This document shows, piece by piece, positions 4,301-31,157 of a DNA stretch of 49,033 bases. This DNA comes from Anaerolineae bacterium (GTDB taxonomy: Bacteria > Chloroflexota > Anaerolineae > B4-G1 > SLSP01). The translations under genes and the position numbers were made by a program. Below the pieces are notes generated by a model. That model saw only the letters and a list, made by a program, of their open reading frames with translations, was not told where the DNA came from and ran no database searches. The stretch covers positions 1 through 49,033 of the forward strand of contig JAFGSL010000408.1 of assembly GCA_016934645.1 (NCBI GenBank). The letters run 5' to 3'. The first letter of the stretch is position 1; the number at the start of each line of letters is the position of its first letter.

Positions 4301-5056
4301 CACGATCGTGTAGCCGCTGATGCTCTGTTGCCCCTCCGGCTTTACCAGAAGATTTGTATCTGTCTTCAGCATCGTATCCCTGGCGGCTTGGAATTGTGGG
4401 TCAATCACCGGCCTTGCTGTGGAAGCGGTTTCCAGAGACAATTGTAAGGTCTCAGAGAGGTGCGTGACCATATCCTCGTTCAGAAAGCGCGCCATAATCA
4501 GTGCGCCGCGAGTTGGCCCTTCCGAGCTGCTGGTGAGAATGGGCTGGGACGCAATAAACATGGGCTGATCTCCTACGACGAGGAGCCCTTCCACCTCATC
4601 TTCTGAGTGAATGGGAGTCAGTAGAAGATCGTCAGGATTGAGTGCCAGGAGTTGTTCCGGGATTTGGATGAAGGTTTCCTCGTTGAAATCGTAGGCACCG
4701 GCGAATATGATTTTCCCGGATGTATCGATCAACAGAATAATGTTGATCCGGTTGTTGCTATAGGTAGTATCGATGTAGTTGGAGTCGATATAAGCCTGAT
4801 TGAGTGTTTCCATATAGGCATATGTATCATCCCAACTGGCATAGTCTGCGGCAATTTTAGTGACATCTTCGACGGTGCCGGTGATTTGATTTAGGGCGCG
4901 CTGAATATTGCGGGATATAGTCTGCTCTTCTAGGTTGGTGTAACTCTTGATCAGGATTTGTCGCATAGGGATATAGAACAGCAGTAGAATAATCGTCGTT
5001 ATGACGAAAATGCTGCCGATGATCTTTATGCGTAATGGGACAGACTTATTCCGCAT
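1385..5056 (-). CDS. Membrane multi-GAF/PAS sensor histidine kinase
   Basis: A 1223-residue membrane sensor kinase. Order seen: TM helix (about 11-29), extracytoplasmic CHASE4-like sensor (about 50-250, with the DYASWDD motif), TM helix (279-301), HAMP (300-355), three GAF domains (about 385-525, 550-690, 712-868), a PAS domain (880-990), HisKA with phospho-acceptor His1009 in VHDLRNP, and HATPase_c with the N box around Asn1124/Asn1128, G1 DTGTGIP at 1159 and G2 GRGTGLGL near 1183. All catalytic motifs are intact. No response regulator lies beside it, so it is an orphan kinase in this window. Ligands of the CHASE4 and GAF domains cannot be told from sequence. Confidence 0.95.
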   Translation of the reverse strand: MRNKSVPLRIKIIGSIFVITTIILLLFYIPMRQILIKSYTNLEEQTISRNIQRALNQITGTVEDVTKIAADYASWDDTYAYMETLNQAYIDSNYIDTTYSNNRINIILLIDTSGKIIFAGAYDFNEETFIQIPEQLLALNPDDLLLTPIHSEDEVEGLLVVGDQPMFIASQPILTSSSEGPTRGALIMARFLNEDMVTHLSETLQLSLETASTARPVIDPQFQAARDTMLKTDTNLLVKPEGQQSISGYTIVKDIYDNPAVIMRINSPREIFAQGRTTLVYLGSAIMLAGAAFSAAMWWLLRQFVLARLSDFRADVAHIGVLGSAGDFSRRVPVEGEDELSQLGTTVNVMLDSLEQNQRELLIQKQRFENLVSVARATVERPDLEATMKNALEAARVITDAERGSVFVLDELGVVTHSILSRENVSNVEQQEVVGQVMDIGLAGWVVRHRQAVLVDDTEQDPRWYPLPDIPYVVHSALVVPIFSGPRKLGILTLTHPEVGHFDQDDLELMQAAADQMALAIRNAQIYDDQRRLAERQTTLYEALRTFGTLLDPDAVLVVAVERIAQMTDWSVVTILLPDKRTEKLTLRASAGQLPLPEQWSIDPSYGNIGRAFRTGELLYVDNTQTHTAGVTVYETAGSQIAVPLRYGQRTLGILNIEHEGVYAFRADDVILAESLADAIALALENAQIHSHVRQYAANLNMMYSLAQVTSRSLDLETILPEALDSILDSLEFEAGFISLFNPQDGQLQLIATHGIPIIMMKQLQAVLNQDTVRDYISHQHIPLLIEDLSKQTPLIARLKTGAPQLFERFQEWGIHTYIGTPLVQQGQALGIIGMVAREARVLSSNDQALQVTLVQHLATAITNTRLFQAITDERSRLHALIESSSDGIIFIDANQRVPVINAAALEFLALPVAPQEWINRTTLDFLGILRQCAPEAAQTLIKELKRVQGADAEPGEGEFEVFPRAIHWYNLPVTAEDAALGRLILLHDVTAEHLVERMREDLTRTTVHDLRNPLTSISGAIKLLEEGIRDTLTSEQQQLLDIANRSTLRMLNLINAILDISRLEDGQMPLEHTIINLHDFVEDVIQSQMPLAMDKALHIENVLSTELSPIVGDRGLLERVFQNLIGNAIKFTPSEGTVRITGREGDEDPTKLYISITDTGTGIPPEIQGRLFEKFASGKQSGRGTGLGLAFCKMVLNAHKEKIWVEKSDERGTTFTFTLSHL

Positions 5057-9699: not shown

Positions 9700-9791
9700 C
9701 CTTGCGAAGGTTGCGAACGGGATTGCCAGGCACGACGGTTTTGTCATTCACTAACGTTTTTACGCCAAGACCGTGCAAAACCTTCGCAAGG
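9700..9791. repeat. 13-bp inverted repeat pair in gap
   Basis: CCTTGCGAAGGTT at 9700-9712 and its exact reverse complement at 9779-9791. A third copy of the core runs into the end of the Gfo/Idh gene (about 9820-9833). The word is itself almost palindromic. This fills most of the 157-base gap between the GH63-like and Gfo/Idh genes. Confidence 0.8.
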
Positions 9792-9810
9792 GTGGCTGAA
9801 TAGTTTACCC

Positions 9811-10806
9811 TTATCTTATCTTCGCAAGGTTTGGATTGCGCAAGATCGTATCAATGATGCGGTTGGTAAGTGCGGCAGTTTGCCCGGTGCTGGGACATTC
9901 ACCGCGCCCCAACAGCGTATCAACGATGGTTTGGATAAGGGGTTGCTGGATGTGCTGTGGGTTCTCGATGTAAATGCTCTCGGTCTGCCCCCGGCTTTCC
10001 AGTACCACCGGCTCATTGTCGAATGTAGCGTAGTGGATGACGCCAGTTGTCCCCACGATTTCGGTACGGTCCACGCGCTGCTGTGTGCTGAAGTGCCACG
10101 TGCCCGTCCCATGGGCGCCGCTTTCAAACAGCCACGTCGCGCTGACGGTGTCTTCGGCCTCGTAGCACCCGCCCTGGTTGGTGGCGTAGCCTGTCACCAA
10201 CTCGATCGGCCCCAGGAGATACTGGAGCAGGTCGAGGATGTGCGAGCCGAGGTCGCAGAAATAGCCGCAACCCGCGATCTCAGGATCGAGCCGCCAAGGC
10301 TTTGTATCGCTGCAATCCTCCGGCGATGGTGGACGGTGGAGCACGGTGTTCACGCTGCGCACCTCGCCGATCGCGCCTGCATCCAGCCAGGCCTTGACCT
10401 TGAGGAAGCGCGGCAGCATCCGCCGGTAGTACGCCACAAACAGCGGCACACCCGCTTGCGTGCACGCCTGAATCATCGCCTGACATTCTGCGTAGGTACG
10501 GGCCATCGGCTTTTCGACGTACACCGGTTTTCCGGCCTGCGCGACCGCCAGCACGTAATCCTTGTGCGACGACGGTGGCGTAGCGATGTACACGGCGTCG
10601 ACCTCCGGGTCGTTGATCAGCGCATCGGCGTCATTATACCACTTGGGGACACCGTGGCGTTGCGCGTAGTCCCGCGCCAGGTCGCCGTTGCGCCGCATCA
10701 CCGCGACCAACTGCGATCCGTGCGCTTTTTGCAGCGCCGGCCCGCTCTTCACTTCGGTCACATTCCCGCAGCCGATAATGCCCCAGCGGATTGTGTTTGT
10801 CGTCAT
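9811..10806 (-). CDS. Gfo/Idh/MocA family oxidoreductase
   Basis: A 331-residue NAD(P)-dependent dehydrogenase. The Rossmann motif GIIGCGNV is at residues 9-16, the cofactor/catalytic motif VEKPMA follows near residue 95, and the C-terminal domain holds CDLGSHILDLLQYLLG, the conserved D-x-x-x-H pair of the family. The ATG follows an AGGAG ribosome site. Family members oxidise or reduce sugars, inositols and sugar derivatives. It precedes the glycosidase and binding-protein genes on the same strand. It could supply the aldose dehydrogenase step for the pentose route described here, but nothing in the sequence proves this. Its last residues (NLAKIR) are coded by a dispersed repeat. Confidence 0.9.
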   Translation of the reverse strand: MTTNTIRWGIIGCGNVTEVKSGPALQKAHGSQLVAVMRRNGDLARDYAQRHGVPKWYNDADALINDPEVDAVYIATPPSSHKDYVLAVAQAGKPVYVEKPMARTYAECQAMIQACTQAGVPLFVAYYRRMLPRFLKVKAWLDAGAIGEVRSVNTVLHRPPSPEDCSDTKPWRLDPEIAGCGYFCDLGSHILDLLQYLLGPIELVTGYATNQGGCYEAEDTVSATWLFESGAHGTGTWHFSTQQRVDRTEIVGTTGVIHYATFDNEPVVLESRGQTESIYIENPQHIQQPLIQTIVDTLLGRGECPSTGQTAALTNRIIDTILRNPNLAKIR

Positions 10807-10841
10807 TTTACGCTCCTATAGTCTCAGTCATTCTCGCCAGC

Positions 10842-10865
10842 AACGAGTAACCAGTAACCAGTAGC
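10842..10865. repeat. GGTTACTCGTTACT-family repeat, copy 1
   Basis: The complement reads TACTGGTTACTGGTTACTCG. A related copy lies at 14405-14426. Short word repeat of unknown function between the Gfo/Idh and nucleotidyltransferase genes. Confidence 0.6.
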
Positions 10866-10889
10866 GGGTGATGATTGAGTATACGCGGA

Positions 10890-11438
10890 TCACAAGGAAT
10901 TTCGCAATTCGGTGGAATACGCGACGCCGAACTTCTTATGGAGTCGCTCCAGGTCGCGCACCTGTTTGTCCGGCAGTTCGTACCCTGTATGGCACGCCAT
11001 CTGCATTTCTGGGGTATAGCATAGGACGGTCACCCCCGCGATGATACCTCCGCCGGCGAGGTCCTGGCGCTTGAGGATGCGACCCTCGGCATCCCACGCC
11101 GGAATTCCGTTGCCTTCAGCGTCAAGGCGCATCGCGTGCGCATCCACCTCGTCTCCCTCAGCATTTTGCAGGACAAAGGCGGTAGCCGTCTCGACTCCAT
11201 GTGCGTCGACGGTCCCAATGTTCTCTTCCCAAAGATAGCCAAATTCATAACCGTCGTGACTCAGAAGCTCGCGCATACGACCTACGTCGTCTACCAGCAT
11301 AATCACGTCGAGGTCTTTGTGGGGCCGAGTCTGTTCGCCGAGCAAGGCGTCAATCCCCCATCCACCCACCAGCCAGACTTGGATATTGTTTTCCAAAAGG
11401 CGTTGGTAAATACGAATCGCTTCTTCAGCCGTAATCAT
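10890..11438 (-). CDS. LinA/AadA2-like nucleotidyltransferase domain protein
   Basis: A 182-residue protein with the nucleotidyltransferase signature VGGWGIDALLG followed by HKDLDVIM; the Asp pair in DLD is expected to bind metal. Similar proteins adenylylate lincosamides or aminoglycosides, but many family members have no known substrate. The ATG at 11438 follows GAAAGGGG; a longer frame begins inside the next gene and is rejected. It lies 10 bases after the DUF4091 gene and is likely its operon partner. Context does not suggest drug resistance. Confidence 0.75.
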   Translation of the reverse strand: MITAEEAIRIYQRLLENNIQVWLVGGWGIDALLGEQTRPHKDLDVIMLVDDVGRMRELLSHDGYEFGYLWEENIGTVDAHGVETATAFVLQNAEGDEVDAHAMRLDAEGNGIPAWDAEGRILKRQDLAGGGIIAGVTVLCYTPEMQMACHTGYELPDKQVRDLERLHKKFGVAYSTELRNSL

Positions 11439-11448
11439 TGCACCCCTT

Positions 11449-14376
11449 TCAATTCCGCATGACCAGCGGTAAGTATACCTCAAAGCTCGGCCAATAGGCA
11501 TTGTTGGACAGTCCAAGCCACGCGCCGCTGGCATCCTGTGACTTGAGCGCGAAGTAGACGGTCCCGCCCGCATAGTGCACGTGCGCGGTGAAGGTGTCCG
11601 TGCTGCCCGGCAGGCTATCGCTGATGACGGTCGCCGCCGCCCAGGTTCCGTCGGTGATGAACGTGGACGAATAGCGCAGCGTCGTCGTGACGACCTGCGG
11701 CAGGGGCGTCCAGCAAAGGTGGGCGGTGAGCGAGCCTGTTTCGGTCAGGACATCGATGATGCGCAGATTGTCCACGGCGGGTAGACTCACGGTGATGTAG
11801 TCCGGTTTGACCTCTTCATCGCTGCCACTCGCATCGATCACCACCAGGCTGACAGTGTAGACACCTGGCGTAGTGTAGATGTGTGTGGGATTCTGTTCCA
11901 GGCTATCCGTCGTTCCGTTATTGTCGAAGTCCCATGCCCACGCCGTTGGCCCGTCGTTGGTTGAGGTGTCGGTAAAGTGAACGGTGAGCGGGGCGTCGCC
12001 GGAAGTCACGTCCGCGGTGAAGGCGGCGGTCGGCCCAGCGGTTTCGATGTCGAGGTAATTGAGCATCGTGTACTCGTCGAAAATGCCCATCGCCATCGTC
12101 AGTTTGTTGTCGGTGACGGTGACGCGCTGGGTGCGGACGATGTATGGGCTGGTTGCCTCGTTGTTGACGAAGACGACGCCTTCGATGGCGATGTAGTTGT
12201 GAGCATACGTTCGCCCCTCCCAGCCCACAGAGACGGTGATATCGTAATCGCCGTTGGGTAGGTCGAACTCGAAGGTGGAGGGACGGCCCCAATCCGAGTA
12301 GAGGATGCTGCGCTGCAAGACGTTCGGGCCGCTGCTCAGATAGCGCGTTATCCAGTTGACGTCGGAAGGCGCGTACCAGCCATATCCGGCAGTGGCGCTG
12401 TAATCCGCGCTGCCGATCTTCATATATGTGTGATTGTTGACGATGAGCGGGTCGGCGGCTGGCTCTCCGGCAGGGTCTTGAAAGTTGATGTAGTAGTTGC
12501 CGGGTGGCCCCTCCGCGCGAGGGTGCGTGGGCGGCGGTGTGATGTCGGGGATTGTGGCGATCTCGCCGCCGTTCTTCAGCCCGATGAGACGGCGCAGGTT
12601 GTACATAAACTCGCTGTTGCGCGTGTAGCTCGTTAGCCCGGTGATGATTTTGTCTGCCTGCGCATCGGCGGCGTTGGTCACGTCCACCTGCGGCTGCCCG
12701 CCGCCGAGGACGTAGAGGTATTCGTAGTCCTCGAAGCCGTCGCGCAGCATCTCCAGGCGGATCGAGGGGACGAGTCGATGCCCGTTGGAGCCGTAGGGGA
12801 TGGGGGTATTGCTTACGGAAGGCGGGTAGAACAGGAAGGTGTTGCCGTTCTGCCCATAGGTCATCGGATCCGTCCAGGGATTCTGGCTCCAATTGTTGAT
12901 GGCGTAGTAAGCGATGCCGCGCACGCGGTACTTCCACAGGAACCAGCCGGTGAACTTGCCCTCAATGGCGGGATGGTCCAGCGTGATGGGGTTGAAGTAG
13001 GGCGGGCGTGTGCCGTGCAGGAAGTAGATCCACGTCGTCTCGTCATAGTCGCGCTCACGGGCATGGGAGATGGTGGGGTTGTAGTTGTTCAGCACCGGCA
13101 GCCAGATGTCGATGTGCGCGCCGGGCTGATCGTAGATTTCCGGTTTTGGCTCCTCGGAGACCATCAGCTTGAGATCTGGCGCGGCTTGATGGCTATATTG
13201 AGAATACCATGCCACCGCATCATAATCTGCTTGATCCTGTGGTTCGTTGGCGAAGTAGTGATAGGCCTTGTCGAGATCGCCGTGGCTATTGAGATAGTTC
13301 TGCATCGCGGTTACGTAGGTGAGCCACGCCGTGTTGTAGGCCGAGGTGGGATTTTGCAGCCAGTCGCTCGCGCTGCGCGTGATGCCGCAGAATGTAGACG
13401 GTCGCTGGTCGGCGGACGGGTCGTTGTGCGCAAAGCCCGCCGCCGTGAACGAAGGGAAGCCCGCCCCTTCGTTGAACGGCTGTGTAAACTCTCCGTCGAG
13501 CAAGCCTGTTCCGTCGAGGTAGCGCTCCGCCAGCAGGTCATAGCCCCAGATGCCGTGCGGATCGGAGAGGGTGTGCGTGTTGCAGTCGTAGTCGATGAAT
13601 GGGTTGGCGAACGTGCCGCCGCCGGTCAGTCCGCCGGGCCAGAGCGGGCTGATGGGCGTCAGCCGGTGGTCGATGAAGTACTGCTTGATGCCATCGACGT
13701 ACATCCAGTATTCCGTATCCGTGCCGGGGACGCTGTAGGCACTTAGGAAGATCTGGTGCGAGTAGTTCATCTGCGATTCGACGTGGAGTTCGTCGGGGAT
13801 GGCGAAGTTGAAGACGTGGAGCGTCACCGGGATCGCCACGCCGCCGACGGTCATAGTGGTGGTGTAATCGCCGGACGCGACGCCCGCTGGAACGAAGACG
13901 CTGAACCAGAACGCCGTGTTCTCGCCAGCGGTCAACGCTACGCTGGCGTTGTTGGCAAGCGGCCACAGCGGATCGGGATACGGGCCGGTGCGTCCCAGGC
14001 TGTCGGTCGTCTCATCCAGATAGACGTACTTGACCTGATAGAGTTCGACGGTGATCCCGCTGCCGAAACTGCCCATATTGACGGTGACGTTGCCCGACGC
14101 CGCCGGTTTGACGACGATTTGGAACGGCTCAAACTCGTTGCGGGCCGCGTAGACTTTGACCCCACTGCCGGTCATGGTGGGCGCGACAGCGTCCTTGAAG
14201 ACTCGCTCGCTCGGTGTCGTCGTCCAGAACTGGTAGGCGCTGGTGGATTGTGTGAGGGTGTAGGTGTAGTCTTCCCAATCGTCGCTGGGTGCTGCGATGC
14301 CGGGCGACGACGGCGGGATGACGATAAGTGCGGCGATACCACACATCATCAGAAGACTACGGATTGTGGCCTTCAT
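11449..14376 (-). CDS. Secreted DUF4091/PKD glycoside hydrolase-like protein
   Basis: A 975-residue exported protein. A signal peptide (ending near GIAAPS) is followed by a beta-sandwich, a TIM-barrel-like DUF4091 region (about 180-600, with HYFANEPQDQADYD and the aromatic segments KFTGWFLWKYRVRG and YYAINNWSQNPW), a malectin/CBM-like module (about 650-800), a PKD domain (about 805-880, WAWDFDNNG and NPTHIYTTPG) and an FN3-like module. It ends in FEVYLPLVMRN, a motif shared with the giant protein ending at 36573. The start is the ATG at 14376 after GGGGGAGAG. DUF4091 proteins are probable polysaccharide-degrading enzymes without an assigned substrate. It sits after GT2 and MFS genes. Confidence 0.85.
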   Translation of the reverse strand: MKATIRSLLMMCGIAALIVIPPSSPGIAAPSDDWEDYTYTLTQSTSAYQFWTTTPSERVFKDAVAPTMTGSGVKVYAARNEFEPFQIVVKPAASGNVTVNMGSFGSGITVELYQVKYVYLDETTDSLGRTGPYPDPLWPLANNASVALTAGENTAFWFSVFVPAGVASGDYTTTMTVGGVAIPVTLHVFNFAIPDELHVESQMNYSHQIFLSAYSVPGTDTEYWMYVDGIKQYFIDHRLTPISPLWPGGLTGGGTFANPFIDYDCNTHTLSDPHGIWGYDLLAERYLDGTGLLDGEFTQPFNEGAGFPSFTAAGFAHNDPSADQRPSTFCGITRSASDWLQNPTSAYNTAWLTYVTAMQNYLNSHGDLDKAYHYFANEPQDQADYDAVAWYSQYSHQAAPDLKLMVSEEPKPEIYDQPGAHIDIWLPVLNNYNPTISHARERDYDETTWIYFLHGTRPPYFNPITLDHPAIEGKFTGWFLWKYRVRGIAYYAINNWSQNPWTDPMTYGQNGNTFLFYPPSVSNTPIPYGSNGHRLVPSIRLEMLRDGFEDYEYLYVLGGGQPQVDVTNAADAQADKIITGLTSYTRNSEFMYNLRRLIGLKNGGEIATIPDITPPPTHPRAEGPPGNYYINFQDPAGEPAADPLIVNNHTYMKIGSADYSATAGYGWYAPSDVNWITRYLSSGPNVLQRSILYSDWGRPSTFEFDLPNGDYDITVSVGWEGRTYAHNYIAIEGVVFVNNEATSPYIVRTQRVTVTDNKLTMAMGIFDEYTMLNYLDIETAGPTAAFTADVTSGDAPLTVHFTDTSTNDGPTAWAWDFDNNGTTDSLEQNPTHIYTTPGVYTVSLVVIDASGSDEEVKPDYITVSLPAVDNLRIIDVLTETGSLTAHLCWTPLPQVVTTTLRYSSTFITDGTWAAATVISDSLPGSTDTFTAHVHYAGGTVYFALKSQDASGAWLGLSNNAYWPSFEVYLPLVMRN

Positions 14377-20847: not shown

Positions 20848-20925
20848 TTATGGGTTTTGGGTTGTGAGTCTTGGGTTATGGGAAGGGAACGCTTACCCCA
20901 CAACTCTCAACCCACAACTATAGTA
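20848..20925. repeat. TTGGGTTGTGAG word repeat
   Basis: Imperfect inverted repeat made of GGGTTGTGAG-like words, filling the gap between the dehydratase and aldehyde dehydrogenase genes. Function unknown. Confidence 0.55.
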
Positions 20926-21730
20926 CAGAATTACGCAACATTAGTTTGCCGACCTGAATCGTGACTTCGTCGCCCGGCGTGAGCGTGAAATCATCCAGTG
21001 GAACGAGGCAGGTGCCGGTCATCAGGAACGCGCCATGAGGGAAGTCGAGTTCGCGGAACAGGTAGGTTGCCAGTTCCTCGAGGGCGCGCTTCATTTGGGA
21101 TGTGCTGGCCTCGCCGGTGTACACCGTTTCGCCATTGCGAGCGATTTCGATGCGAATGGGGACGTCACGCAACGCATCCGGCGCGGAGATTTCGATGCCC
21201 GGCCCTAGCGCGCAGGAGCCGTTGTAGACTTTCGCCTGCGGCAGATAGAGCGGATTCTCACCTTCGATGCTGCGCGACGAGACGTCGTTTCCGGCGCAAT
21301 AGCCGAAGATTTCGCCGTGGCGGTTGATGACGAGCGCAAGCTCCGGTTCCGGCACGTTCCAGTCGCTATCGGGCCGCACGCGGATCGCGCCGCCGGGCGC
21401 GACCACGCGCCAGCCCGCTGCCTTGAAGAACAGTTCCGGGCGCTCGGCGGTGTAGACGCGCGTGTAGATGTCGCCCGTTTGCGATTCGGCCTCGCGGGCG
21501 TCACGGCTGCGCAGGTAGGTCACGCCGGCAGCCCACACCTCCTGCGCGGGTTCGATGGGGGCGAGCAGATCGCCATCCGCCGCACCCTCTTGCGGCAACG
21601 CCGCCAGGAACGGCACGAGCGCGCTGCGGGGCAACTCTAACAGCAGGCTCAAGTTGTAACTCGGCGGCAGATATTTGCCATCCAATGCCCAACGCGGTCC
21701 ATGTGGGGTTGTGTGTCGTGTCAGATACAT
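20918..21730 (-). CDS. FAH-family 2-keto-3-deoxy-D-pentonate dehydratase
   Basis: A 270-residue fumarylacetoacetate hydrolase-fold protein. The segment [13 protein letters not shown] with [14 protein letters not shown] is typical of 2-keto-3-deoxy-arabinonate/xylonate dehydratases. Metal ligands are the EPE pair (Glu128, Glu130) and Asp149 in GNDVSSR; Lys167 lies in QAKVYNGS. Expected reaction: 2-keto-3-deoxy-D-pentonate to 2-oxoglutarate semialdehyde, the Weimberg pathway step. The ATG follows AGGAGG. It heads a two-gene operon with the aldehyde dehydrogenase and is divergent from the LacI-type fusion gene. Confidence 0.85.
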
Positions 21731-21809: not shown

Positions 21810-21854
21810 AGGGGATTTTTGTGGCGGGGCGAAGCCCCGCCACAAAAATCCCCT
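21810..21854. repeat. Perfect 21-bp palindrome with GAA loop
   Basis: Arms 21810-21830 and 21834-21854 are exact reverse complements, very GC-rich near the loop. It sits between two divergent promoters and has no T-run, so it is not a terminator. It is more likely a repeat element or regulatory structure. Confidence 0.9.
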
Positions 21855-21929: not shown

Positions 21930-21958
21930 TTGACAAAGGGTAAAATCGGATATATCAT
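21930..21958 (+). promoter_or_regulatory. Sigma70-type promoter of the LacI-fusion operon
   Basis: TTGACA (21930-21935), 17 bases, TATCAT (21953-21958). Perfect -35 and 5 of 6 in the -10. Transcription should begin near 21965, giving a leader of about 57 bases. Confidence 0.7.
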
Positions 21959-21964: not shown

Positions 21965-21980
21965 GGTTAAGCGATTAATC
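21965..21980 (+). promoter_or_regulatory. Candidate LacI-type operator 1
   Basis: GGTTAAGCGATTAATC, a near palindrome with central CG (5 of 7 arm positions pair), placed at the predicted transcription start. LacI-family operators commonly have a central CG. Shares TAAGCGATT with site 2. Confidence 0.45.
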
Positions 21981-22004: not shown

Positions 22005-22020
22005 AAGATAAGCGATTTAC
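22005..22020 (+). promoter_or_regulatory. Candidate LacI-type operator 2
   Basis: Contains GATAAGCGATTTAC just before the TTG start. The shared TAAGCGATT words are 41 bases apart, close to four helical turns, which would suit cooperative binding. Confidence 0.4.
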
Positions 22021-22021
22021 C

Positions 22022-23599
22022 TTGAAGAAAAAGCAAAAAGTCACGCTGGAAGATATTGCGAATCAAGTTGGTGTCTCCGCTGCAACTGTGTCGCAGGCGC
22101 TATCGGGCAAGGGGCGGATGGCCGATGCTACCCGTGAACGTATCTTGCAAGTGGTGGAGGAACTGGCTTATCAGCCGGATCAATACGCGCAAAACCTGGC
22201 GCGCCGTCACGCGACGCAAGCCGGCGGGAAGCGCCTCCGCCGTTCCAAAGGGAAAAACGTCCCGCCGCCCGGACTGATGGCGTTTTACGATGTGCCGCAA
22301 ATTCTGGAAGTGGTGCAGCTTGAGCTGCAACAGCGAGAGGAAGAAGGTTATGGGGTCAATGGTTATCGCGAACAGTTGGAGGCGCTAGGCAAACCGTCCA
22401 AGCGGAAGTTGTACCGTCTGTATAGCGACCTTGTATCCTCTTCGCTACGATCTGACTTCGGCTACGATGAACCCGATACTTTGCCGGGGATCCACGATGT
22501 CCGTCCCGAGGGGCCACGTGCCACGTCGTTAGTCATAACTTCCGATGTGCTTTATGACCGTATCTACGGCGCGTGGCTGGGGCGGATTGCTGGCTGCGTG
22601 TTGGGTAAGCCGCTTCAGATGGGGTGGTCCAAGAGCAAGGTTATCCAGTACCTCCAATTGGCTGACAGTTATCCTCTGACAGATTACGTCCCCCGGGTCG
22701 TGTCGCCACCGCCGGGGTTTGAACTCAAGTCTGAGGCGAACGGCCATTTTCGTGGCGAGATTCACGGCGCGCCCTGCGACGATGATACCGATTTTACGCT
22801 GCTCGCGCTGCACATTCTCGAAACGTATGGACCGGATTTCAAAACGACGGATGTCGCTACCGAGTGGTTGCGATGTTTGCCCTATTTCGGCATCCATACG
22901 ACCGAGCGCACGGTCTACCGCAACCTCGTGTGGAACGTCCATCCCGACGAAGCGGCCTCTTTCGTGAACCCGGAACGCGAATTCGTCGGTGCGCGGACGC
23001 GAGCGGATGTGTATGGCTACATCGCGCCCGGCAAACCGGAATTGGCTGCGGCGCTGGCCTACAAAGATGCTGCGCTCTCCCACACCAAGAACGGCGTATA
23101 TAGCGCGATGTTGATGGCGGGGATGATTGCTTGGACTTTTGTGACGGATGACCTGGAAGAGATCGTTGGCGTGGGGCTGTCGGAAATCCCGCGCAACTGT
23201 CGTCTGGCGGAGGCCGTCAATGGGGTGTTGGCAGCACGACGCAACGGCGATGATTGGGAATTGACCTACGAACAACTCCTCCTGAATTACGGCGCTTATT
23301 CTCCCATTCACACGGTCAACAATACTGCCTGGGTCATTCTGGCTTTGCTGTACAGCGGCGGCGATTTCAACCGCGCGCTTGGTCTGGCTGTTGCCTGCGG
23401 CATGGACACCGGCAGCAATGCCGCCAGCGTCGGGTCGCTTGTGGGATTGCTGTATTCAAGTATGCGGATTCCCACCCACTGGACGGCGCCGCTCGAGGGT
23501 ACCTTGTGTACCGGGCTTGCGCAATTCCCGACGACCTGGATTTCTGAGTTAGCGCGCCGCACTGCCATCCTTGCGGAAAAAACGCTCTCCGGATTGTGA
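22022..23599 (+). CDS. LacI-type HTH fused to ADP-ribosylglycohydrolase-fold domain
   Basis: A 525-residue protein. Residues 6-62 form a complete LacI DNA-binding head: TLEDIANQVGVSAATVSQAL, then the third helix and a hinge helix QNLARR. Residues 63-175 are a charged linker. Residues 178-485 match the ADP-ribosylglycohydrolase (DraG/ARH) fold: DRIYGAWLGRIAG, metal motif DDDTD (253-257) and C-terminal MDTGSNAASVG. In the last motif the usual DTD is DTG, so one metal ligand is missing. The usual LacI sugar-binding domain is absent. The only in-frame start is TTG at 22022; the upstream frame is closed by TAA. It leads a plus-strand sugar operon, so I infer a regulator whose effector domain is an ARH fold. 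Confidence 0.88.
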   Translation: MKKKQKVTLEDIANQVGVSAATVSQALSGKGRMADATRERILQVVEELAYQPDQYAQNLARRHATQAGGKRLRRSKGKNVPPPGLMAFYDVPQILEVVQLELQQREEEGYGVNGYREQLEALGKPSKRKLYRLYSDLVSSSLRSDFGYDEPDTLPGIHDVRPEGPRATSLVITSDVLYDRIYGAWLGRIAGCVLGKPLQMGWSKSKVIQYLQLADSYPLTDYVPRVVSPPPGFELKSEANGHFRGEIHGAPCDDDTDFTLLALHILETYGPDFKTTDVATEWLRCLPYFGIHTTERTVYRNLVWNVHPDEAASFVNPEREFVGARTRADVYGYIAPGKPELAAALAYKDAALSHTKNGVYSAMLMAGMIAWTFVTDDLEEIVGVGLSEIPRNCRLAEAVNGVLAARRNGDDWELTYEQLLLNYGAYSPIHTVNNTAWVILALLYSGGDFNRALGLAVACGMDTGSNAASVGSLVGLLYSSMRIPTHWTAPLEGTLCTGLAQFPTTWISELARRTAILAEKTLSGL

Positions 23600-23649
23600 G
23601 GTTTGTTGATGGGAGATTGGGTGATTTGTGATTGTTGAGAGAGGTCATT

Positions 23650-24816
23650 ATGCTTTCTGAATTAACTCGCTTGCGGGATCGAAAAACCGGACGGTGTTCT
23701 TCTTGGGATAAATCGGGGCGCAACCATGATCTGTGGATCGTCCAACCTGGTGAATCCGTTGTGCTGGCGGATATTGCCGGTCCCGCACAAATCACGCATA
23801 TCTGGATGACGCAGCTTAATCATTACCGCGAGTGCCTGCTCAAGATCACCTACGACGATGCGCCATATCCAAGTGTGTTGGCCCCACTCGGCGATTTCTT
23901 CTGCCTGGGGCATGGGCTGATGAACTCGTTCCAAAGCGCGCTGTTTTCTTCTGCTACGCTTTTCCCCTATCACTTCAACAAACCAACCGCGCTGAACAGC
24001 TACGCGCCGATGCCGTTCCGCGAACGGGCCGTGGTGGAGTTGGTCAACGAGAGTGATGAACCTCATCGCCAGTACTTCTACGTGGATTACGAAACCCTGG
24101 AAGATTTTCCCGACGACACGGCCTATTTCCACGCCGAGTTTCGCCGTACCAATCCCTTCGGCGGGTGGGGGTCGGAGATTCGCGTGAATACTCCCGATGC
24201 CAACGCCGCCAACAAGGCGCGTGAGGCGTGGGAGAACAACTACGTCATCCTGGAAACGCAGGGGCGCGGGCACTACATCGGCTGTAATCTGTCGGTGACG
24301 AACTTCAAGGATACCTGGTGGGGCGAGGGCGACGACATGATCTGGGTGGACGGTTACAAGTGGCCGCCCGATTTGCACGGCACCGGCACGGAGGATTATA
24401 TTGGGCAGGCCGGGGGGATGCAGCCGGATGCTTTTTGGCGCAACGGTTCCTCCATTTTTGAGGGCTACACCATCCCGTCGCCGGAGATCGAGCTGTGGCG
24501 CGGCAACGGCGGCTATCACACCGGCTACGTCTTTCACCTGGAGAACCCGGTGCGCTTCACCCGCGAAATCAAGGTGACGATTGAGCACGGTCACGCCAAC
24601 CACCAGGCCAACGAGATGAGCAGCGTGGCCTACTGGTACGCCGAACGGCCCACGCAGGTAATCGCGCCGCCGCCGGTCGCGCAGCGCCTTCCCGTGCGGC
24701 GCGACAATCAGGGCGCGTGGCTCCACGACCCGGAGCGCGAATGTCCCGGCAAACCCGTCCCGCTGAACGATGAAATGCGGGCGATGAAGGCGCGCTGGGC
24801 AAAAGGCTTCAAATAA
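23650..24816 (+). CDS. GH172 (DUF2961) glycosidase
   Basis: A 388-residue cytoplasmic protein of the DUF2961 family, now GH172. Seen: N-terminal SSWDKSGRNHD, then WWGEGDDMIWVDG with Glu226 and GTGTEDYIG with Glu248. Two glutamates at this spacing match the known catalytic pair of the family. Known GH172 activities are on alpha-D-fructofuranosides (difructose dianhydride) and D-arabinofuranosides. The ATG at 23650 follows AGAGGT; an in-frame TTG six codons upstream is less likely. It is the second gene of the operon and is followed 13 bases later by an esterase. Confidence 0.88.
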   Translation: MLSELTRLRDRKTGRCSSWDKSGRNHDLWIVQPGESVVLADIAGPAQITHIWMTQLNHYRECLLKITYDDAPYPSVLAPLGDFFCLGHGLMNSFQSALFSSATLFPYHFNKPTALNSYAPMPFRERAVVELVNESDEPHRQYFYVDYETLEDFPDDTAYFHAEFRRTNPFGGWGSEIRVNTPDANAANKAREAWENNYVILETQGRGHYIGCNLSVTNFKDTWWGEGDDMIWVDGYKWPPDLHGTGTEDYIGQAGGMQPDAFWRNGSSIFEGYTIPSPEIELWRGNGGYHTGYVFHLENPVRFTREIKVTIEHGHANHQANEMSSVAYWYAERPTQVIAPPPVAQRLPVRRDNQGAWLHDPERECPGKPVPLNDEMRAMKARWAKGFK

Positions 24817-24829
24817 CCGGAGGGTGTTT

Positions 24830-25624
24830 ATGGCATTTGATCCCGCAAAACTCGGAACGACAGAGCCGGATGTAACCTATGGGACGGCAGACGGCCACGA
24901 ACTCAAGATGGACGTTTATTACCCCGCTTCTGGCGGACCCTGGTCGGGGGTGATCTTTGTCCACGGCGGAGGGTGGACGGAAGGCGACAAAGCGCCGCTG
25001 CCGGTGATTCCCACCGCGAGCGGCTATCTGGTTGTCTCCATCAACTACCGCATGTACCCGGCCTACCGCTTCCCGGCGATGATCGAGGACGTTAAGTGCG
25101 CCATCCGCTTTTTGCGCGCTCACGCCGATGGCTACAATCTCGACCCCGATCGTATCGCTTTGATCGGTCACAGCGCGGGCGGGCATCTGGCGGCGCTGGC
25201 CGGGCTGGTCGATGAATCTGCCGGCTGGGACGTCGGCTCGTACCTTGAGCAATCCAGCCGCGTTCAGGCTGTAGTCGAGATGTCCGGCCCCTCCGATCTT
25301 GCCGGACGGTTTCCCGAAGTGGTGGAGGCGTTGACGGTCAACGTCTTTGGCCCAGAGCAGTTTGTCAGCGCCAGCCCTGTGACGTACGTGAGGCCGGACG
25401 CGCCGCCTTTTCTGATTATCCATGGTGAAAAAGATGAAGTTGTGCCAGTGGCGCAGGCCTACCGGCTCCACGAGGCGCTGCGCACAGTGGGAGCGTCATC
25501 GGAACTGGTTATCTTGCAGAATGCGGGGCACGGCTTCGAGCCGGTGGATGGGATACCTACGCCTTCGATGGAAGAAGCCATGGCGTTGATGCTGGCCTTT
25601 TTAGCACGATACTTGATTCGGTAA
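24830..25624 (+). CDS. Alpha/beta hydrolase, esterase (BD-FAE/HSL type)
   Basis: A 264-residue serine hydrolase without signal peptide. HGGGW forms the oxyanion motif, GHSAGG holds the nucleophile Ser, GEKDEVVP holds Asp and NAGHGFEP the catalytic His. The ATG follows GGAGGG. Its position between GH172 and transporter genes suggests removal of acyl groups from imported oligosaccharides, an inference. Confidence 0.88.
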   Translation: MAFDPAKLGTTEPDVTYGTADGHELKMDVYYPASGGPWSGVIFVHGGGWTEGDKAPLPVIPTASGYLVVSINYRMYPAYRFPAMIEDVKCAIRFLRAHADGYNLDPDRIALIGHSAGGHLAALAGLVDESAGWDVGSYLEQSSRVQAVVEMSGPSDLAGRFPEVVEALTVNVFGPEQFVSASPVTYVRPDAPPFLIIHGEKDEVVPVAQAYRLHEALRTVGASSELVILQNAGHGFEPVDGIPTPSMEEAMALMLAFLARYLIR

Positions 25625-25676
25625 GAACATTTGGCGACGTTGTGCAGATGTGTGGTTAAGCTTTGGAGGTAGACAC

Positions 25677-26399
25677 ATGAGCAAAAAGAGCAAACAACCG
25701 TTGATGCGGAAATCTCACTTGCCGCTGATTCTGCTTGGCGCAGTGATGACCGGTTACGGATTGGTGACAGCCCTGGTAGGGAGTTGGTTTGCAAACCGGG
25801 CCATGCGCGGATTGATCACCGCGGGCGTGTATCGTCTCCGGCTGGCGGCCTTTGATCAAACCGCCGGTCTCATCGCCGGACTCGTGTTCTTTGTGCTCTT
25901 CGTCTGGTGTGCAGTCAACGCTGCCGGCATCGTGCGCGTCGCTTTTGGCATCGGCGCGCTGTCGTCCTTCTCGCCCATGTTGGTTGGCCGGGCTGAGAAT
26001 CTGCTGTTTGGGGTGATCGGCCTTCCCACGATGAATGCGGGCAGCGTGCTGGCCGGGGCTGTGACTACCCTTTTGTTCGCCCTGCCTATGCTTATCCTGT
26101 TCGTCTTGCTGGCGTGCGGGCGGCGCGTGCCTCGCGGCTGTCGCTGGCTGTCACTGGCGTCCATCTTCATCGTACTGGCGACGGCCTTATTCCCCATCTA
26201 TGTGACCGTATTGGCTTTCTTGATCAGGCCCGGTGATCCCGCGGTCGGACGGATGATCGAGGTCAGCTCGCAGGTCATCAAGCTGCGCTTCATCCTGCCG
26301 GGCTTGAGCTTCCTGTTGCTGGCGTTTATAGGCACACGCTTTGCCCGTCGGCAAGCGTTGGTTGGGGCTGTGGGCACTGCCGTTGAGGAAGGAGCATAG
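25677..26399 (+). CDS. Multi-pass membrane protein of unknown function
   Basis: A 240-residue protein with five to six hydrophobic segments, starting at an ATG after GGAGGT. I do not recognise a domain. It ends two bases before the solute-binding lipoprotein gene, which points to translational coupling and a role with the transporter. It is not a typical CUT1 permease: no EAA loop is seen. Confidence 0.7.
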   Translation: MSKKSKQPLMRKSHLPLILLGAVMTGYGLVTALVGSWFANRAMRGLITAGVYRLRLAAFDQTAGLIAGLVFFVLFVWCAVNAAGIVRVAFGIGALSSFSPMLVGRAENLLFGVIGLPTMNAGSVLAGAVTTLLFALPMLILFVLLACGRRVPRGCRWLSLASIFIVLATALFPIYVTVLAFLIRPGDPAVGRMIEVSSQVIKLRFILPGLSFLLLAFIGTRFARRQALVGAVGTAVEEGA

Positions 26400-26401: not shown

Positions 26402-28084
26402 ATGCGAAAATCTGCTGGAAGAACACTATTGTACAGGCTGACAGCCTTGTTGATGTTGGTGATGCTGCTGGCATCCTGCGGTAAGCCAGCGAGTAAAGCG
26501 ACACCCGCGCCGGCGAGCGCGCCGGCCGCTGACCCCTTTGCCGGACTCGATCTTTTTGTCCCCAACCCTTACAACCCACCCATCGAGATGAGTTCCGTCA
26601 CTACCGTTAATGCCACGGTCAAGTTTCTGGAAGGGGACGACATCCACAACAACATCTGGACGCGGGCTTACGAACAACTCCTCGGCATCAAACTCACCTA
26701 CAAGTGGGTGGTCGATGGCTCGATGTATGACCAGAAACTCGGCCTGTCGATCAATTCGGGCGACATCCCGGATATGTTCATGGTTAATGGGACGCAGCTT
26801 CAGCTCTATCACGAAGCAGGCTTACTCGCCGATCTGACCTTGGTCTACGACGCTGACGCCTCCGCCACCACGCGCGACATTCTGGCGCAGAACCCGGTCG
26901 CGCTCAAGGCCGCGACGATCGATGGCGCGTTGTGGGGCATCCCTTTGACGGATGCGCCCGTCGCCACGGCCTCGGTGCTGTGGGTCCGCCTGGATTGGAT
27001 GGACAAACTCGGCATCGCCGCCCCAACCAGTATGGTGGACGTGCTCGACATCTCGCGGCGCTTCACCGAGGAGGATCCCGACGGCAACGGTGTGGCCGAT
27101 ACGATTGGCCTGTGTATGAGCAAAGGGCTTTTTGGCGCCATCGCCGGGCTGCAGGGGTTCTTCAACGGCTATCACGCCTATCCCGGCATCTGGTTCGAGC
27201 GGGATGGTGAGTTGGTGTATGGATCGGTGCAGCCGGAAATGCGCGATGCCCTGCTCGCTTTACAGAAGATGTACGCGAGCGGCCAGATCGATCCCGAGTT
27301 CGGGGTCAAGGACATCAACCAGGTCACGGAAACCATCGCGCAGGGGAAATGCGGCATGGAGTTTGGCGTCTGGTGGAATCCCTACCATCCGCTTAACCTG
27401 AGCCAGGCGAACAATCCGGATGCTTATTGGCAGGCGTATCCCATCCCCTCCGTGGACGGTGCGCCCGCCAGGAGCCAGTATTCCTCGGCGATCGGCGCTT
27501 TCCTGGTGATCAGGAACGGGTACGAACATCCTGAAGCCCTGATCCGCATGGTCAATTTCTGGACCGATAACATCGTGCGCTCGCAGGAGGACACCATCCG
27601 CACCGTTTTCCTGGGCGATATCGACAATCCCGATGTGGTACTCTACAAATACACGCCGGTCGTCCTGTGGGAACCCAACGCCTCGATTGAGGGCGGTCGC
27701 AAGCTGCGCGAGGCGCTGGCGAAGCACGATCCCTCCGGCCTGGATAACGAGATGGCGTGGCGCTACCGGATCATCCAGGCGTATTTCGAGCAGGGTATCA
27801 AGGAGGCGTGGGTCGAAGTCGCCACCAATGGGCCGGACGGGGCCGTCACCATCCTCGAAGGCGTTCTGGGGGATCATGGGATGCTGAACCGTTTCTACGG
27901 CACGCCCACACCAGCGATGGCGGAGAAAATGCCCACGCTCCAGCCGATGGAAGCCGAGGTGCTGACGAAGATCATCATGGGCGATTCGATCGACGCGTTC
28001 GACCAATTCGTGGAGAACTGGTACAAGCTGGGCGGAACGGAAATCGTCCAGGAGGTCAATCTCTGGGCCGAGGAGAACCAGTAA
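26402..28084 (+). CDS. LplA/YtcQ-type sugar-binding lipoprotein
   Basis: A 560-residue extracellular solute-binding lipoprotein of the large CUT1 type. Signal region ends in the lipobox LASC. Then come a low-complexity Ala/Pro linker, GDIPDMFMVNG, ALWGIPLTDAP, an EF-like loop EEDPDGNGVADTIG that probably binds calcium, and a C-terminal QEVNLWAEE segment typical of this type. It is followed by LplB- and YtcP-like permeases. Expected ligand: an oligosaccharide. Confidence 0.93.
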   Translation: MRKSAGRTLLYRLTALLMLVMLLASCGKPASKATPAPASAPAADPFAGLDLFVPNPYNPPIEMSSVTTVNATVKFLEGDDIHNNIWTRAYEQLLGIKLTYKWVVDGSMYDQKLGLSINSGDIPDMFMVNGTQLQLYHEAGLLADLTLVYDADASATTRDILAQNPVALKAATIDGALWGIPLTDAPVATASVLWVRLDWMDKLGIAAPTSMVDVLDISRRFTEEDPDGNGVADTIGLCMSKGLFGAIAGLQGFFNGYHAYPGIWFERDGELVYGSVQPEMRDALLALQKMYASGQIDPEFGVKDINQVTETIAQGKCGMEFGVWWNPYHPLNLSQANNPDAYWQAYPIPSVDGAPARSQYSSAIGAFLVIRNGYEHPEALIRMVNFWTDNIVRSQEDTIRTVFLGDIDNPDVVLYKYTPVVLWEPNASIEGGRKLREALAKHDPSGLDNEMAWRYRIIQAYFEQGIKEAWVEVATNGPDGAVTILEGVLGDHGMLNRFYGTPTPAMAEKMPTLQPMEAEVLTKIIMGDSIDAFDQFVENWYKLGGTEIVQEVNLWAEENQ

Positions 28085-28136
28085 CGCATTTTCTGATTTT
28101 CGATTTGCAGATTTGTTGATTTTCCAGGGAGTTCGT

Positions 28137-29039
28137 ATGTTATCACGCAGGAAGTTTTCTCGGCAGATCCCGCTCTATGTGATGCTGGCCCCGGCCATTG
28201 TGCTGGTGCTGGTGTATGCCTACGCGCCGATGATCGGGATCGTGATGGCGTTCCAGCGTGTCTTGCCCGGCAAGGGCCTCTTCGGTTCGCCCTGGGTAGG
28301 GCTGGATAATTTCCTGTTCGTCCTGAAGATGCCGAACATCGTGCAGGTGATCTGGAACACGGTCCGCATTGCCGGTCTGAAGGCCGTGGCGGGTGTGGTC
28401 GTGCCGGTGACGGTGGCGCTGATGCTCAACAACGTCACCAGCCAGGCGTTCAAACGCGCGGTGCAGACCGTCATCTACTTGCCGCACTTCCTCTCGTGGG
28501 TCATCCTGGCGGGCATCTTCGTGGACATCCTCTCGCCTTCGGAAGGCGTGGTCAACCACTTGCTCGGGCTGGTGGGGCTACAGCCGATCTTCTTCCTGGG
28601 CGATGACAAGGTTTTCCCCTGGACGATGGTCTTCACCGACGTGTGGAAGTCGTTCGGCTTCGGCACCATCGTCTACCTGGCGGCGCTGACTGACATCGAT
28701 CCGACACTGTACGAAGCCGCCGTGGTCGATGGCGCGACCCGCCGGCAGCAGACGTGGTACATCACGCTGCCGGGCATCTCTGGGACCATCATCATGCTGT
28801 CCACACTCAGCCTGGGCAACATCCTCAACGCGGGATTTGATCAAATCTTCAACCTTTACGGCCCGCTGGTCTACCGTACCGGCGACATCATCGACACGCT
28901 GGTCTACCGCATCGGTATCCTCAACTCCCAGTATGGCGTGGCGACGGCGGTCGGGCTGCTGAAGTCGGTCGTTTCCCTGGTGCTGATCGGCATCGCCTAC
29001 AAACTCGCGGCCAAATGGGCCGACTATCGGATTTTTTAG
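28137..29039 (+). CDS. LplB-type sugar ABC transporter permease
   Basis: A 300-residue CUT1 permease with six hydrophobic segments. The EAA loop reads YEAAVVDGATRRQQTWYITLPG. The ATG at 28137 follows AGGGAG. It pairs with the permease at 29151. No ATPase is coded nearby, so a shared MsiK-like ATPase elsewhere is expected, as in other systems of this type. Confidence 0.93.
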   Translation: MLSRRKFSRQIPLYVMLAPAIVLVLVYAYAPMIGIVMAFQRVLPGKGLFGSPWVGLDNFLFVLKMPNIVQVIWNTVRIAGLKAVAGVVVPVTVALMLNNVTSQAFKRAVQTVIYLPHFLSWVILAGIFVDILSPSEGVVNHLLGLVGLQPIFFLGDDKVFPWTMVFTDVWKSFGFGTIVYLAALTDIDPTLYEAAVVDGATRRQQTWYITLPGISGTIIMLSTLSLGNILNAGFDQIFNLYGPLVYRTGDIIDTLVYRIGILNSQYGVATAVGLLKSVVSLVLIGIAYKLAAKWADYRIF

Positions 29040-29134: not shown

Positions 29135-29150
29135 TCGGGGACGTGGTGTG

Positions 29151-30035
29151 ATGAATGAAAAGATCGTCAAACTGCCATTTTTTGAGAACCTGGTCAACCT
29201 GGTCTTGTTGGCATTGCTGGGGGTGCTGTGCGCATTTCCCATCGTCCATACCCTGGCGCTTTCGTTTTCGACGGCTGGCGCTGCATCCAGCGGGCGGGTG
29301 ACTATCTGGCCGGTCGAGTTCACCACGCAGGCTTACCGGTTTGTATTGGAGAATTCAGCCTTCATCAAATCGTTCGGGGTTTCCTTGCTGCGCGTGCTGG
29401 TCGGCGTGCCGGTCAACATGATTTTGACCATCCTGGTCGCTTATCCACTGTCACGGACGAAGGCCGAATTCCGGGCGCGCGACTTCTTCGCGTGGTTCTT
29501 CATGATCACCGTACTATTTTCCGGCGGTTTGATTCCCTGGTACATGGTCATCCGCCAGACCGGCTTGATCGACAGCTTCTGGGCGCTCATCATTCCCGGA
29601 GCGCTGCCGGTGTTCAACGTGATCCTGCTCGCGAATGCTTTCAGAGGCATCCCGAAAGAGCTTGAGGAAGCCGCTGCGATGGACGGCGCCGGGCACTGGA
29701 CCATCCTGCTCCGCGTCCTGCTGCCTCTATCGCTGCCTGTCCTGGCGACCGTGACGTTGTTCGTGGCGGTCGGGCACTGGAATTCCTGGTTCGACGGGCT
29801 GATCCTGATGAATTCGCCGGATAAATACCCGTTGCAGAGCTATCTGCAAACCGTCGTCATCAACCCCGATCCCCGGATGCTCACCGAACGCGACCTGGCC
29901 TTGTTGCAACTGATCAGCAACCGCACCACGCGGGCCGCGCAAATCTTCATCGCGATGGTGCCGATCCTGGTGATTTATCCGTTTTTGCAGCGGTATTTTA
30001 CGGCTGGGGTGAAGTTGGGGTCGGTAAAGGGATAG
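29151..30035 (+). CDS. YtcP-type sugar ABC transporter permease
   Basis: A 294-residue CUT1 permease, second subunit. Six hydrophobic segments and the EAA loop LEEAAAMDGAGHWTILLRVLLPLS cut here as residues about 170-195. I use the ATG at 29151; a GTG directly before it is also possible. The stop TAG lies inside a TAGACGG-family repeat. Confidence 0.93.
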   Translation: MNEKIVKLPFFENLVNLVLLALLGVLCAFPIVHTLALSFSTAGAASSGRVTIWPVEFTTQAYRFVLENSAFIKSFGVSLLRVLVGVPVNMILTILVAYPLSRTKAEFRARDFFAWFFMITVLFSGGLIPWYMVIRQTGLIDSFWALIIPGALPVFNVILLANAFRGIPKELEEAAAMDGAGHWTILLRVLLPLSLPVLATVTLFVAVGHWNSWFDGLILMNSPDKYPLQSYLQTVVINPDPRMLTERDLALLQLISNRTTRAAQIFIAMVPILVIYPFLQRYFTAGVKLGSVKG

Positions 30036-30093: not shown

Positions 30094-30141
30094 TATCTTT
30101 GTGCTTTGAGGGGATCGCTAGATCCCCGCTTGTTATCAAAA
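30094..30141 (+). repeat. Half copy of the structured repeat family
   Basis: Matches the left half of 36295-36410, including the hairpin GGGGATC-GCTA-GATCCCC shape and the TTG-TAT-AAAA tail. The other half is missing. Confidence 0.6.
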
Positions 30142-30155
30142 GGGCATCTCACATT

Positions 30156-31157
30156 ATGGACTTTTCCGAATTCACTACATTTCCTATCATAGATGGGCAC
30201 GTGCATTTCATCCATCCGGAGGCGATGGAGGCGATGGTGACGGTGCTGGATCAGACCGGGTGCGTCAGCGCCAATCTCGTCTGCCTGCCCAACCCCGACG
30301 GGACCACGGGCAATCCGGCTGCGTTGACCTTCAGGGAACGCCATCCCGACCGGGTGTACCTCTCCGGCGCATTGGAGTACGGCCCGGCGTTGGCGGACCT
30401 GGCCCGCGCGCCGGAGATGTTGGCGCGGCAAGTGCTGGCGTTGAAATCTCAAGGCTTCGACGGCCTCAAGCTCATCGAGGGCAAGCCGCAGGTGCGCAAG
30501 CTGTTGCCGTACCCGCTCGACGGGTCGCTGTACGCGGAGCTATGGGCGGCTTTGGAGCAGGAACAGTTTCCGGTGGTGTTCCACGTCGCCGACCCGGACG
30601 AGTTCTGGGATGCCGTACGTTGTCCTTCCTGGGCGCGGCGGAGTGGGTGGGACTACTCTGACGGCAGCTACCCGACCAAAGAGGGTCTCTACACTGAAGT
30701 GGATCGCATTCTCGAGCGTCACCCGCGCTTGAAGCTCACGCTCGCGCACTTCTATTTCCTCTCGCGGGATTTGCCACGCGCAGCTCGTTTCCTCGATGCG
30801 CATCCCAACGTGTGTTTCGACCTCACGCCCCACGTGGATATGTACGACGATTTCAGCCGCGAACCGGCCCGCGTTCGTGAGTTCTTCCTGCGCTACCAGG
30901 ACCGGTTGATCTACGGCACCGACCTCGACACGCGGGTGTTGCAGCGCGGCGCGGCGGACACGCAGTGGGTTTTGAGCCTGGCGTGGCTCATCCGCGCGAT
31001 GTTGGAGAAGGATGGACCGTTCGTTGTGCCGGATGACGGTGTGCATCCCGCTCCTGATGTGGGGTATCACCACGGGTTGGGTCTGCCGCGCGATGTTTTA
31101 GAGAAGATTTACCGTATCAACTTCGAGCGGGTGTACAGTATTTGTTCGGCAGATTGA
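30156..31157 (+). CDS. Amidohydrolase family (PF04909-like) protein
   Basis: A 333-residue metal-dependent TIM barrel. Metal motif HVHF near residue 12, GFDGLKLIEGKP with a Lys in the strand-4 position, VVFHVADPDEFWD with His, LTLAHFYFLS with His, and IYGTDLDTR with Asp complete the expected set. The ATG at 30156 has a weak AAGGG. It is the last gene of the plus-strand operon and belongs to the same broad family as the gene at 17808. Substrate unknown. Confidence 0.82.
   Translation: MDFSEFTTFPIIDGHVHFIHPEAMEAMVTVLDQTGCVSANLVCLPNPDGTTGNPAALTFRERHPDRVYLSGALEYGPALADLARAPEMLARQVLALKSQGFDGLKLIEGKPQVRKLLPYPLDGSLYAELWAALEQEQFPVVFHVADPDEFWDAVRCPSWARRSGWDYSDGSYPTKEGLYTEVDRILERHPRLKLTLAHFYFLSRDLPRAARFLDAHPNVCFDLTPHVDMYDDFSREPARVREFFLRYQDRLIYGTDLDTRVLQRGAADTQWVLSLAWLIRAMLEKDGPFVVPDDGVHPAPDVGYHHGLGLPRDVLEKIYRINFERVYSICSAD

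Follow-up and report, generated by a model that had tools for sequence, protein, structure and literature searches.

A candidate sugar-operon repressor from Anaerolineae in which a LacI-type DNA-binding head is fused to an ADP-ribosylglycohydrolase fold

A fusion gene encoding 525 residues, in which a LacI-type helix-turn-helix (HTH) is followed by an ADP-ribosylglycohydrolase (ARH) fold, is located at positions 22022..23599 on the forward strand of an Anaerolineae contig (JAFGSL010000408.1; the whole stretch of 49,033 nucleotides that was analysed is called the window here). The reading favoured, with fair confidence, is that the protein is an autoregulating one-component sugar repressor in which an ARH pseudoenzyme serves as the effector domain and probably senses an alpha-furanoside imported by its own operon. 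The LacI-type head would bind an operator at the start of the operon's own transcript and block transcription. The effector domain would descend from an ARH-fold glycosidase; with Gln199 in place of the catalytic Glu, Gly464 in place of a bridging metal ligand and the rest of the domain kept, it would bind a sugar ligand rather than hydrolyse it. The ligand, probably of the alpha-D-fructofuranoside or alpha-D-arabinofuranoside type, would be imported by the ABC transporter of the operon and cleaved by its GH172 glycosidase, and its binding would release the operator and turn on the uptake and breakdown genes. An inducer-released repressor is suggested because the operator is found at the transcription start of its own operon and a sugar importer is encoded downstream. 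That the protein dimerises, binds DNA, represses rather than activates and has lost catalysis is what we infer from its sequence; the weakest step is the proposal of an alpha-furanoside, or a product of one, as the ligand.

All features of the fusion gene described here are on the forward strand. Pfam places the LacI HTH at residues 8-53 (22043..22180) and the ARH domain, PF03747, at residues 183-485 (22568..23476), and the scan of the 525 residues returned only LacI and ADP_ribosyl_GH, with neither a periplasmic-binding domain nor a ROK domain. The hinge region occupies residues 54-66 (22181..22219). Its AQxLAR motif covers residues 56-61, and Leu59, which is presumably the minor-groove residue of LacI-type regulators, is invariant across the 76 fused proteins of alignment A2, composed of the window protein and 75 of 77 fused homologues (P0107 and P0109 were left out, being fused, yet only 383 and 390 residues long). 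Hinge residues 54-64 have a pLDDT below 50 in the predicted model. Residues from about 91 to 170 (22292..22531) form a helical N-terminal extension, a feature of the ARH subfamily that unfused relatives share, and in the predicted structure the all-helical ARH fold spans about residues 170-525. A phmmer search of the PDB with the ARH part alone gave weak matches only (best E 0.13); the fold is assigned from Pfam, a profile search that reached DraG and MJ1187, and the structure model. The initial annotation had described a full LacI HTH and hinge at the N-terminus, followed by an ARH/DraG fold in place of the periplasmic-binding effector domain. Pfam and the hinge motif agree with the first statement, and Pfam, the profile search and the predicted structure with the second. 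Unfused relatives are about 440 residues long and start at about window residue 90, so the HTH seems to have been added to a whole protein.

The fusion is real. Both Pfam domains are present in 77 of the 120 homologues listed, out of 280 found, and fused genes occur in five genomes, at L001 (G001), L002 (G002), L113/L121 (G679), L114/L122 (G452) and L125/L132 (G855). These occurrences rule out an assembly or frameshift artefact joining two genes, for which the metagenomic origin of the sequence is the sole reason to ask and which is left with a negligible probability. The initial annotation had named the lack of a conserved fusion in relatives as grounds for giving up its proposal; the domain search shows that the fusion is conserved. 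Searching again with the fused protein of L122 as query gave 8 fused proteins among the 120 listed of 7825; seven of these are new with respect to the first search, L122's own protein, P0122, being one of the seven. The 84 fused proteins examined are the window protein, the L132 protein and 82 database proteins. LacI-ARH fusions are rare among the genomes searched. In the phylum, a match at 1e-60 was obtained in 23 of 400 genomes, one of them with a fused protein, while in the class 10 of 396 genomes passed at 1e-145 and four were fused (L081, L082, L113 and L114); L118, from the class search, is cut by the end of its own contig. Further sets gave matches in 2 of 24, 2 of 48, 1 of 3 and 2 of 147 genomes. 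Automatic JGI names already pair 'ADP-ribosylglycohydrolase/transcriptional regulator' for homologues; annotation pipelines have met the architecture, which as far as we found has apparently never been studied. The earlier remark that no regulator of this form had been characterised agrees with the open-licence PMC literature, in which no description of a LacI-ARH regulator was found.

Two residues of the ARH site have been lost from the window protein. Position 199 (22616..22618), equivalent to the catalytic Glu41 of ARH3, is Gln in the window protein and Glu in 38 of 38 unfused relatives. The second metal motif (23405..23416) reads D462-T-G464-S465 instead of DTDC, and D464, the counterpart of ARH3 Asp316, is gone. 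The first metal motif, Asp253-Asp254-Asp255 (22778..22786), is intact, and we take it to be the first motif of ARH3 on the strength of its TDD motif. Of the set matching the ARH3 metal Asp residues 77, 78, 314 and 316, the window protein has D254, D255 and D462, and 464 is Gly. In a profile alignment, residue 199 corresponds to the Glu of LGxxxE, and D464 to the second Asp of DxD, in MJ1187 and DraG; the ARH3 equivalences come from this alignment and from structural ranges rather than from superposed coordinates. Glu41 has been identified as the catalytic Glu of ARH3 (PMC8319183, PMC7050489, PMC6309922), and Asp316 is reported to bind both metals (PMC8141533). The D77A, D78A, D314A and D316A variants of ARH3 are reported as impaired or inactive, with D314A retaining some PAR hydrolysis, and D77A bound ADP-ribose 23-fold tighter (PMC8141533); E41A is inactive, yet compatible with ligand binding (PMC8319183). 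By this comparison, the window protein looks like a mutant that is dead but still able to bind. Judged by its residues it is not a functional ARH, and a simple active ARH enzyme, tried as a candidate, is not favoured for it because Glu199 and Asp464 are lost; with three metal Asp residues left, it may still bind metal or be active to some degree.

Glu199 is found in all 38 unfused proteins and in all 46 fused proteins that keep D464, while 37 of the 38 fused proteins without D464 have Gln199, the exception being P0019, which keeps Glu199. An analysis of 107 rows gives the same picture with the same exception; in it, and in the comparison of switching positions below, the near-identical L113 and P0013 are both counted among 39 degraded fused rows. 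Within A2, Gly or Ser is found at 464 in every one of the 37 fused proteins in the range P0001 to P0040, and among the other 39 proteins D464 is kept in 38 and absent in P0060. At a cut of 80%, only 4 of 431 positions (95-525) switch between the groups with and without D464, namely 199 from Glu to Gln, 326 from Ile to Thr, 464 from Asp to Gly and 465 from Cys to Ser. Losses of D253 and/or D254 occur in a few fused proteins that are also without D464; D254 is lost in five rows (P0003, P0013, L113, P0016 and P0060, with L113 and P0013 near-identical), all five lacking D464. P0060 is without the catalytic pair and without D253/D254, its three nearest relatives in the tree keep both residues of the pair, and its lineage appears to have lost the catalytic Glu and D464 independently. 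The fewest changes on the trees are 2 or 3 for D464 and 4 for residue 199, and a test of independent pairs, in which there are only 2 pairs on starred branches, leaves significance out of reach.

Glu199 and Asp464 are both kept in 46 of the 84 fused proteins, that of L132 included, and the L002 protein keeps both beside the same kind of operon. These proteins speak for a trigger enzyme, that is, a protein that represses and still hydrolyses its ligand and so both senses and consumes its inducer. For the window protein such a role is rather unlikely, because its lineage lost the catalytic Glu and the bridging Asp together and the matching ARH3 mutants are inactive or nearly so, but it is probably the ancestral state and likely holds for the relatives that keep the pair. 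Regulators with an intact pair (L002 and L132) and those that have lost it (window, L001 and L121) share the operator and much of the operon, so regulation is seemingly independent of catalysis; judging from these sequences, it probably preceded the loss of catalysis.

The absence of the catalytic residues would also suit an ARH domain that serves as a structural or dimerisation scaffold or that responds to a metal ion, the regulator then being a simple autorepressor, and autoregulation alone would account for an operator at its own promoter. We consider this improbable, given that 53 of 431 positions (95-525) are at least 95% conserved in the unfused, fused-intact and fused-degraded groups alike and that the gene is found in a sugar uptake operon. 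The ARH part has a pN of 0.14 against a pS of 0.66 (L001) and 0.62 (L113), with synonymous sites near saturation, and is thus maintained by purifying selection.

The repressor favoured here would act at a promoter whose layout is shared by close relatives. A sigma-70-type promoter (TTGACA, 17 nt, TATCAT; 11/12) was called computationally at 21930..21958 on the forward strand. The putative primary operator, GGTTAAGCGATTAATC, is a near-palindrome with a central CG at 21965..21980 (+), 6 nt past the -10 hexamer, a position that would put it at or near the transcription start. A weaker candidate with 3 mismatches, AGATAAGCGATTTACC, is found just before the start codon (22006..22021, +), and a weak site similar to it is present in L001; the window has 8 matches to the pattern at up to 3 mismatches where 5.7 are expected, so such weak sites are uninformative, being expected by chance. 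One 16-mer pattern, GRTTAARCGNWTAAYC, is present upstream of the gene in the window and in all four close fused loci (L001, L121, L002 and L132). It begins 6 nt past the -10 hexamer, or 3 nt in L121, and the -35/-10 pair, called by a tool in the window, can be made out by eye at the corresponding position in the four other loci. The pattern was fitted to the sites of the window, L001, L121 and L002, and L132, fetched after the pattern had been fixed, is the sole hold-out. It carries the window's identical operator 16-mer, and the stricter form of the pattern occurred in none of 20000 random 120-bp sequences of L132 composition. Across the G001, G002 and G679 genomes the exact pattern is found only at the fusion gene, and each has one further one-mismatch site. 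At up to one mismatch on both strands the counts for G001, G002, G679 and G452 are 3, 3, 3 and 0, against 2, 3, 0 and 0 when the pattern is reversed as a control; discrimination therefore comes from exact matches alone. The pattern is absent from G452, including the more distant fused locus L122, upstream of which a different 15-bp palindrome, GATTAACCGTTAATC, was noted by eye. A GC-rich inverted repeat (hairpin) at 21823-21841, between the divergent genes at 20918-21730 (-) and 22022 (+), is unique in the window when up to 3 mismatches are allowed.

Downstream of the fusion gene and all on its strand are genes for a GH172 (DUF2961) glycosidase (23632..24816), a BD-FAE family esterase (24824..25624), a hydrophobic protein without a Pfam family (25650..26399; conserved, at 61% in L132, 78% in L002 and 79% in L001), the solute-binding protein (26402..28084) and two permeases (28113..29039 and 29148..30035) of an ABC importer, and an Amidohydro_2 family hydrolase (30099..31157). 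The initial annotation had placed the fusion gene at the head of a GH172-esterase-ABC operon, which these downstream genes bear out. The amidohydrolase is present in all four neighbourhoods compared (the L121 copy is cut by the contig end), the ABC importer genes in the three with sufficient sequence (that of L132 stops after permease 1), and the esterase is kept in L001 and L002. GH172 was considered as a strict partner of the regulator and rejected: it is present in three of four neighbourhoods, twice in L132 and not beside the L001 regulator, though the G001 genome has one elsewhere. The L132 paralogues (9737-10912 and 12102-13274 in reverse-complement coordinates) share 81% and 68% identity with the GH172 of the window. 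Across loci the permeases are 82-89% identical, compared with 54-77% for the regulator. The L122 locus, too, has ABC importer genes of its own downstream of the regulator. Elsewhere in the window are a 3432-residue reading frame (36573-46871, -) for a giant protein of surface type with DUF11 and PKD domains and 21 stretches of FG-GAP repeats, and a 1223-residue sensor histidine kinase (1385-5056, -) with CHASE4, HAMP, several GAF and one PAS domain.

Among solved structures the window GH172 is closest to the alpha-D-fructofuranosidase alphaFFase1 (5.7e-92), followed by 4kq7 (2.5e-47), 8ah3 (1.6e-40) and 8ic8, an exo-alpha-D-arabinofuranosidase (1.6e-31). It keeps the equivalents of W267, E270, E291 and D292 of alphaFFase1, of which E270 and E291 are catalytic. 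Substrates reported for GH172 are alpha-D-fructofuranosides and alpha-D-arabinofuranosides (PMC8605356, PMC10115798). The initial proposal that the ARH fold acts as a sensor is strengthened by the conserved fusion, the operator, the largely conserved operon and the loss of catalytic residues with the domain kept, whereas for the ligand, which it suggested might be ADP-ribose-like, a nucleotide sugar or an N-glycoside, the GH172 and ABC importer genes point rather to an alpha-furanoside. ARH enzymes take off ADP-ribose, and on that ground the HTH might instead bring a working hydrolase to DNA, where it could, for instance, strip ADP-ribose from the DNA itself or from proteins bound to it. This is very improbable, as the catalytic residues are lost, the operator is found at one promoter and no ADP-ribosyltransferase family was detected among those window genes scanned with Pfam.

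Trees of the ARH part were built with unfused rows hand-chosen for spread, 28 in two trees and 38 in another, in which L113 was dropped and L122 replaced by its database copy P0122. The fused proteins split into groups of 77 (SH-aLRT 34) and 7 (SH-aLRT 89) with unfused proteins between them. One protein listed as unfused nests inside the large fused group; P0089, listed without the HTH, nests among fused proteins. The fused or unfused state changes at least 3 times on the tree with 38 unfused rows and 4 times on that with 28, and in both the starred branches force 3. An AU test of one fused clade without L122 gave p 0.061. The second LacI-ARH group comprises L122:5557-7179 (-), P0122-P0125, P0147, P0176 and P0201, and the source of P0125 is a MAG labelled Candidatus Hadarchaeum. 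Its members keep the catalytic Glu and the Asp of the second motif, and the group is possibly an independent fusion whose members are candidate trigger enzymes. In two actinobacterial loci, L030:8783-11136 and L033:2536-4791, an unfused ARH gene is immediately preceded by a full-length LacI gene, and in L030 the two overlap by 4 nt. This arrangement, seen in 2 of 78 unfused loci (some on short contigs), is a possible precursor of the fusion, and loss of the periplasmic-binding domain between adjacent LacI and ARH genes is a lead as to how it came about. Two other unfused relatives that were inspected likewise have sugar-type neighbours. In L124 (9471-11767) the ARH relative is directly followed by a PfkB kinase, and the neighbourhood also has a Gfo/Idh oxidoreductase and a URO-D-like protein; L123 has Gfo/Idh and xylose-isomerase-like proteins. 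By analogy, the PfkB neighbour suggests a role for the unfused enzymes in the catabolism of sugars or nucleosides.

LacI-family heads are familiar in combination with sensors of the periplasmic-binding type, and a second, unrelated sensor fold on such a head shows the head to be modular. If the reading as a pseudoenzyme sensor is true, ARH is to be added to the few enzyme folds that have been put to new use as transcription sensors. Since the kind of operon and the operator are common to intact and degraded versions, the step from enzyme to sensor is directly testable in close relatives. A wider proposal, to which we give even chances, is that these proteins constitute a new sugar-regulator class that arose when a LacI head captured a whole glycosidase, with trigger and dead versions under the same operator making up a living series from enzyme to furanoside receptor. 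This route was possibly reached twice, as there are two fused groups and two apparent losses of the catalytic pair. For annotation, the case is a warning that 'ADP-ribosylglycohydrolase' entries in sugar operons can denote regulators and not ADP-ribose enzymes.

The window protein resembles LacI/GalR regulators such as CcpA, PurR and RbsR in its HTH, hinge motif and sugar operon context, and in a putative near-palindromic, central-CG operator at the promoter. However, its effector has an ARH fold where theirs has that of periplasmic-binding proteins, and by its domain content it is not a full member of that family. Compared with ARH3, ARH1, DraG and MJ1187, it has gained an N-terminal HTH and is without the catalytic Glu and one of the metal Asp residues, both of which are retained in all 38 unfused members of its ARH subfamily that were examined. 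In the alphaFFase1 operon of Bifidobacterium dentium, a LacI-family regulator, GH32, GH172 and an ABC importer are described (PMC8605356). As far as that description goes, a LacI-type regulator, GH172 and an ABC importer are common to both operons; here the regulator is a LacI-ARH fusion, an esterase and an amidohydrolase are present, and no GH32 is seen. E. coli yegTUV is reported to encode a predicted ARH-family protein, a transporter and a sugar kinase, with its own regulator YegW/GgaR adjoining (PMC10819704). By that account regulator and ARH are separate genes in E. coli and the regulator is of the GntR type, and the ARH and PfkB kinase pair of the unfused L124 locus recalls yegUV. A parallel in principle is provided by the ROK repressors NagC and Mlc, described as sugar kinases that became carbohydrate-responsive repressors by acquiring an N-terminal DNA-binding domain (PMC12696579). 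The LacI-ARH protein would work alike, as an enzyme that gained a DNA-binding domain, but with another enzyme fold and another type of HTH. LacI-ARH is a new pairing of a head with an enzyme-derived sensor, parallel to the ROK repressors.
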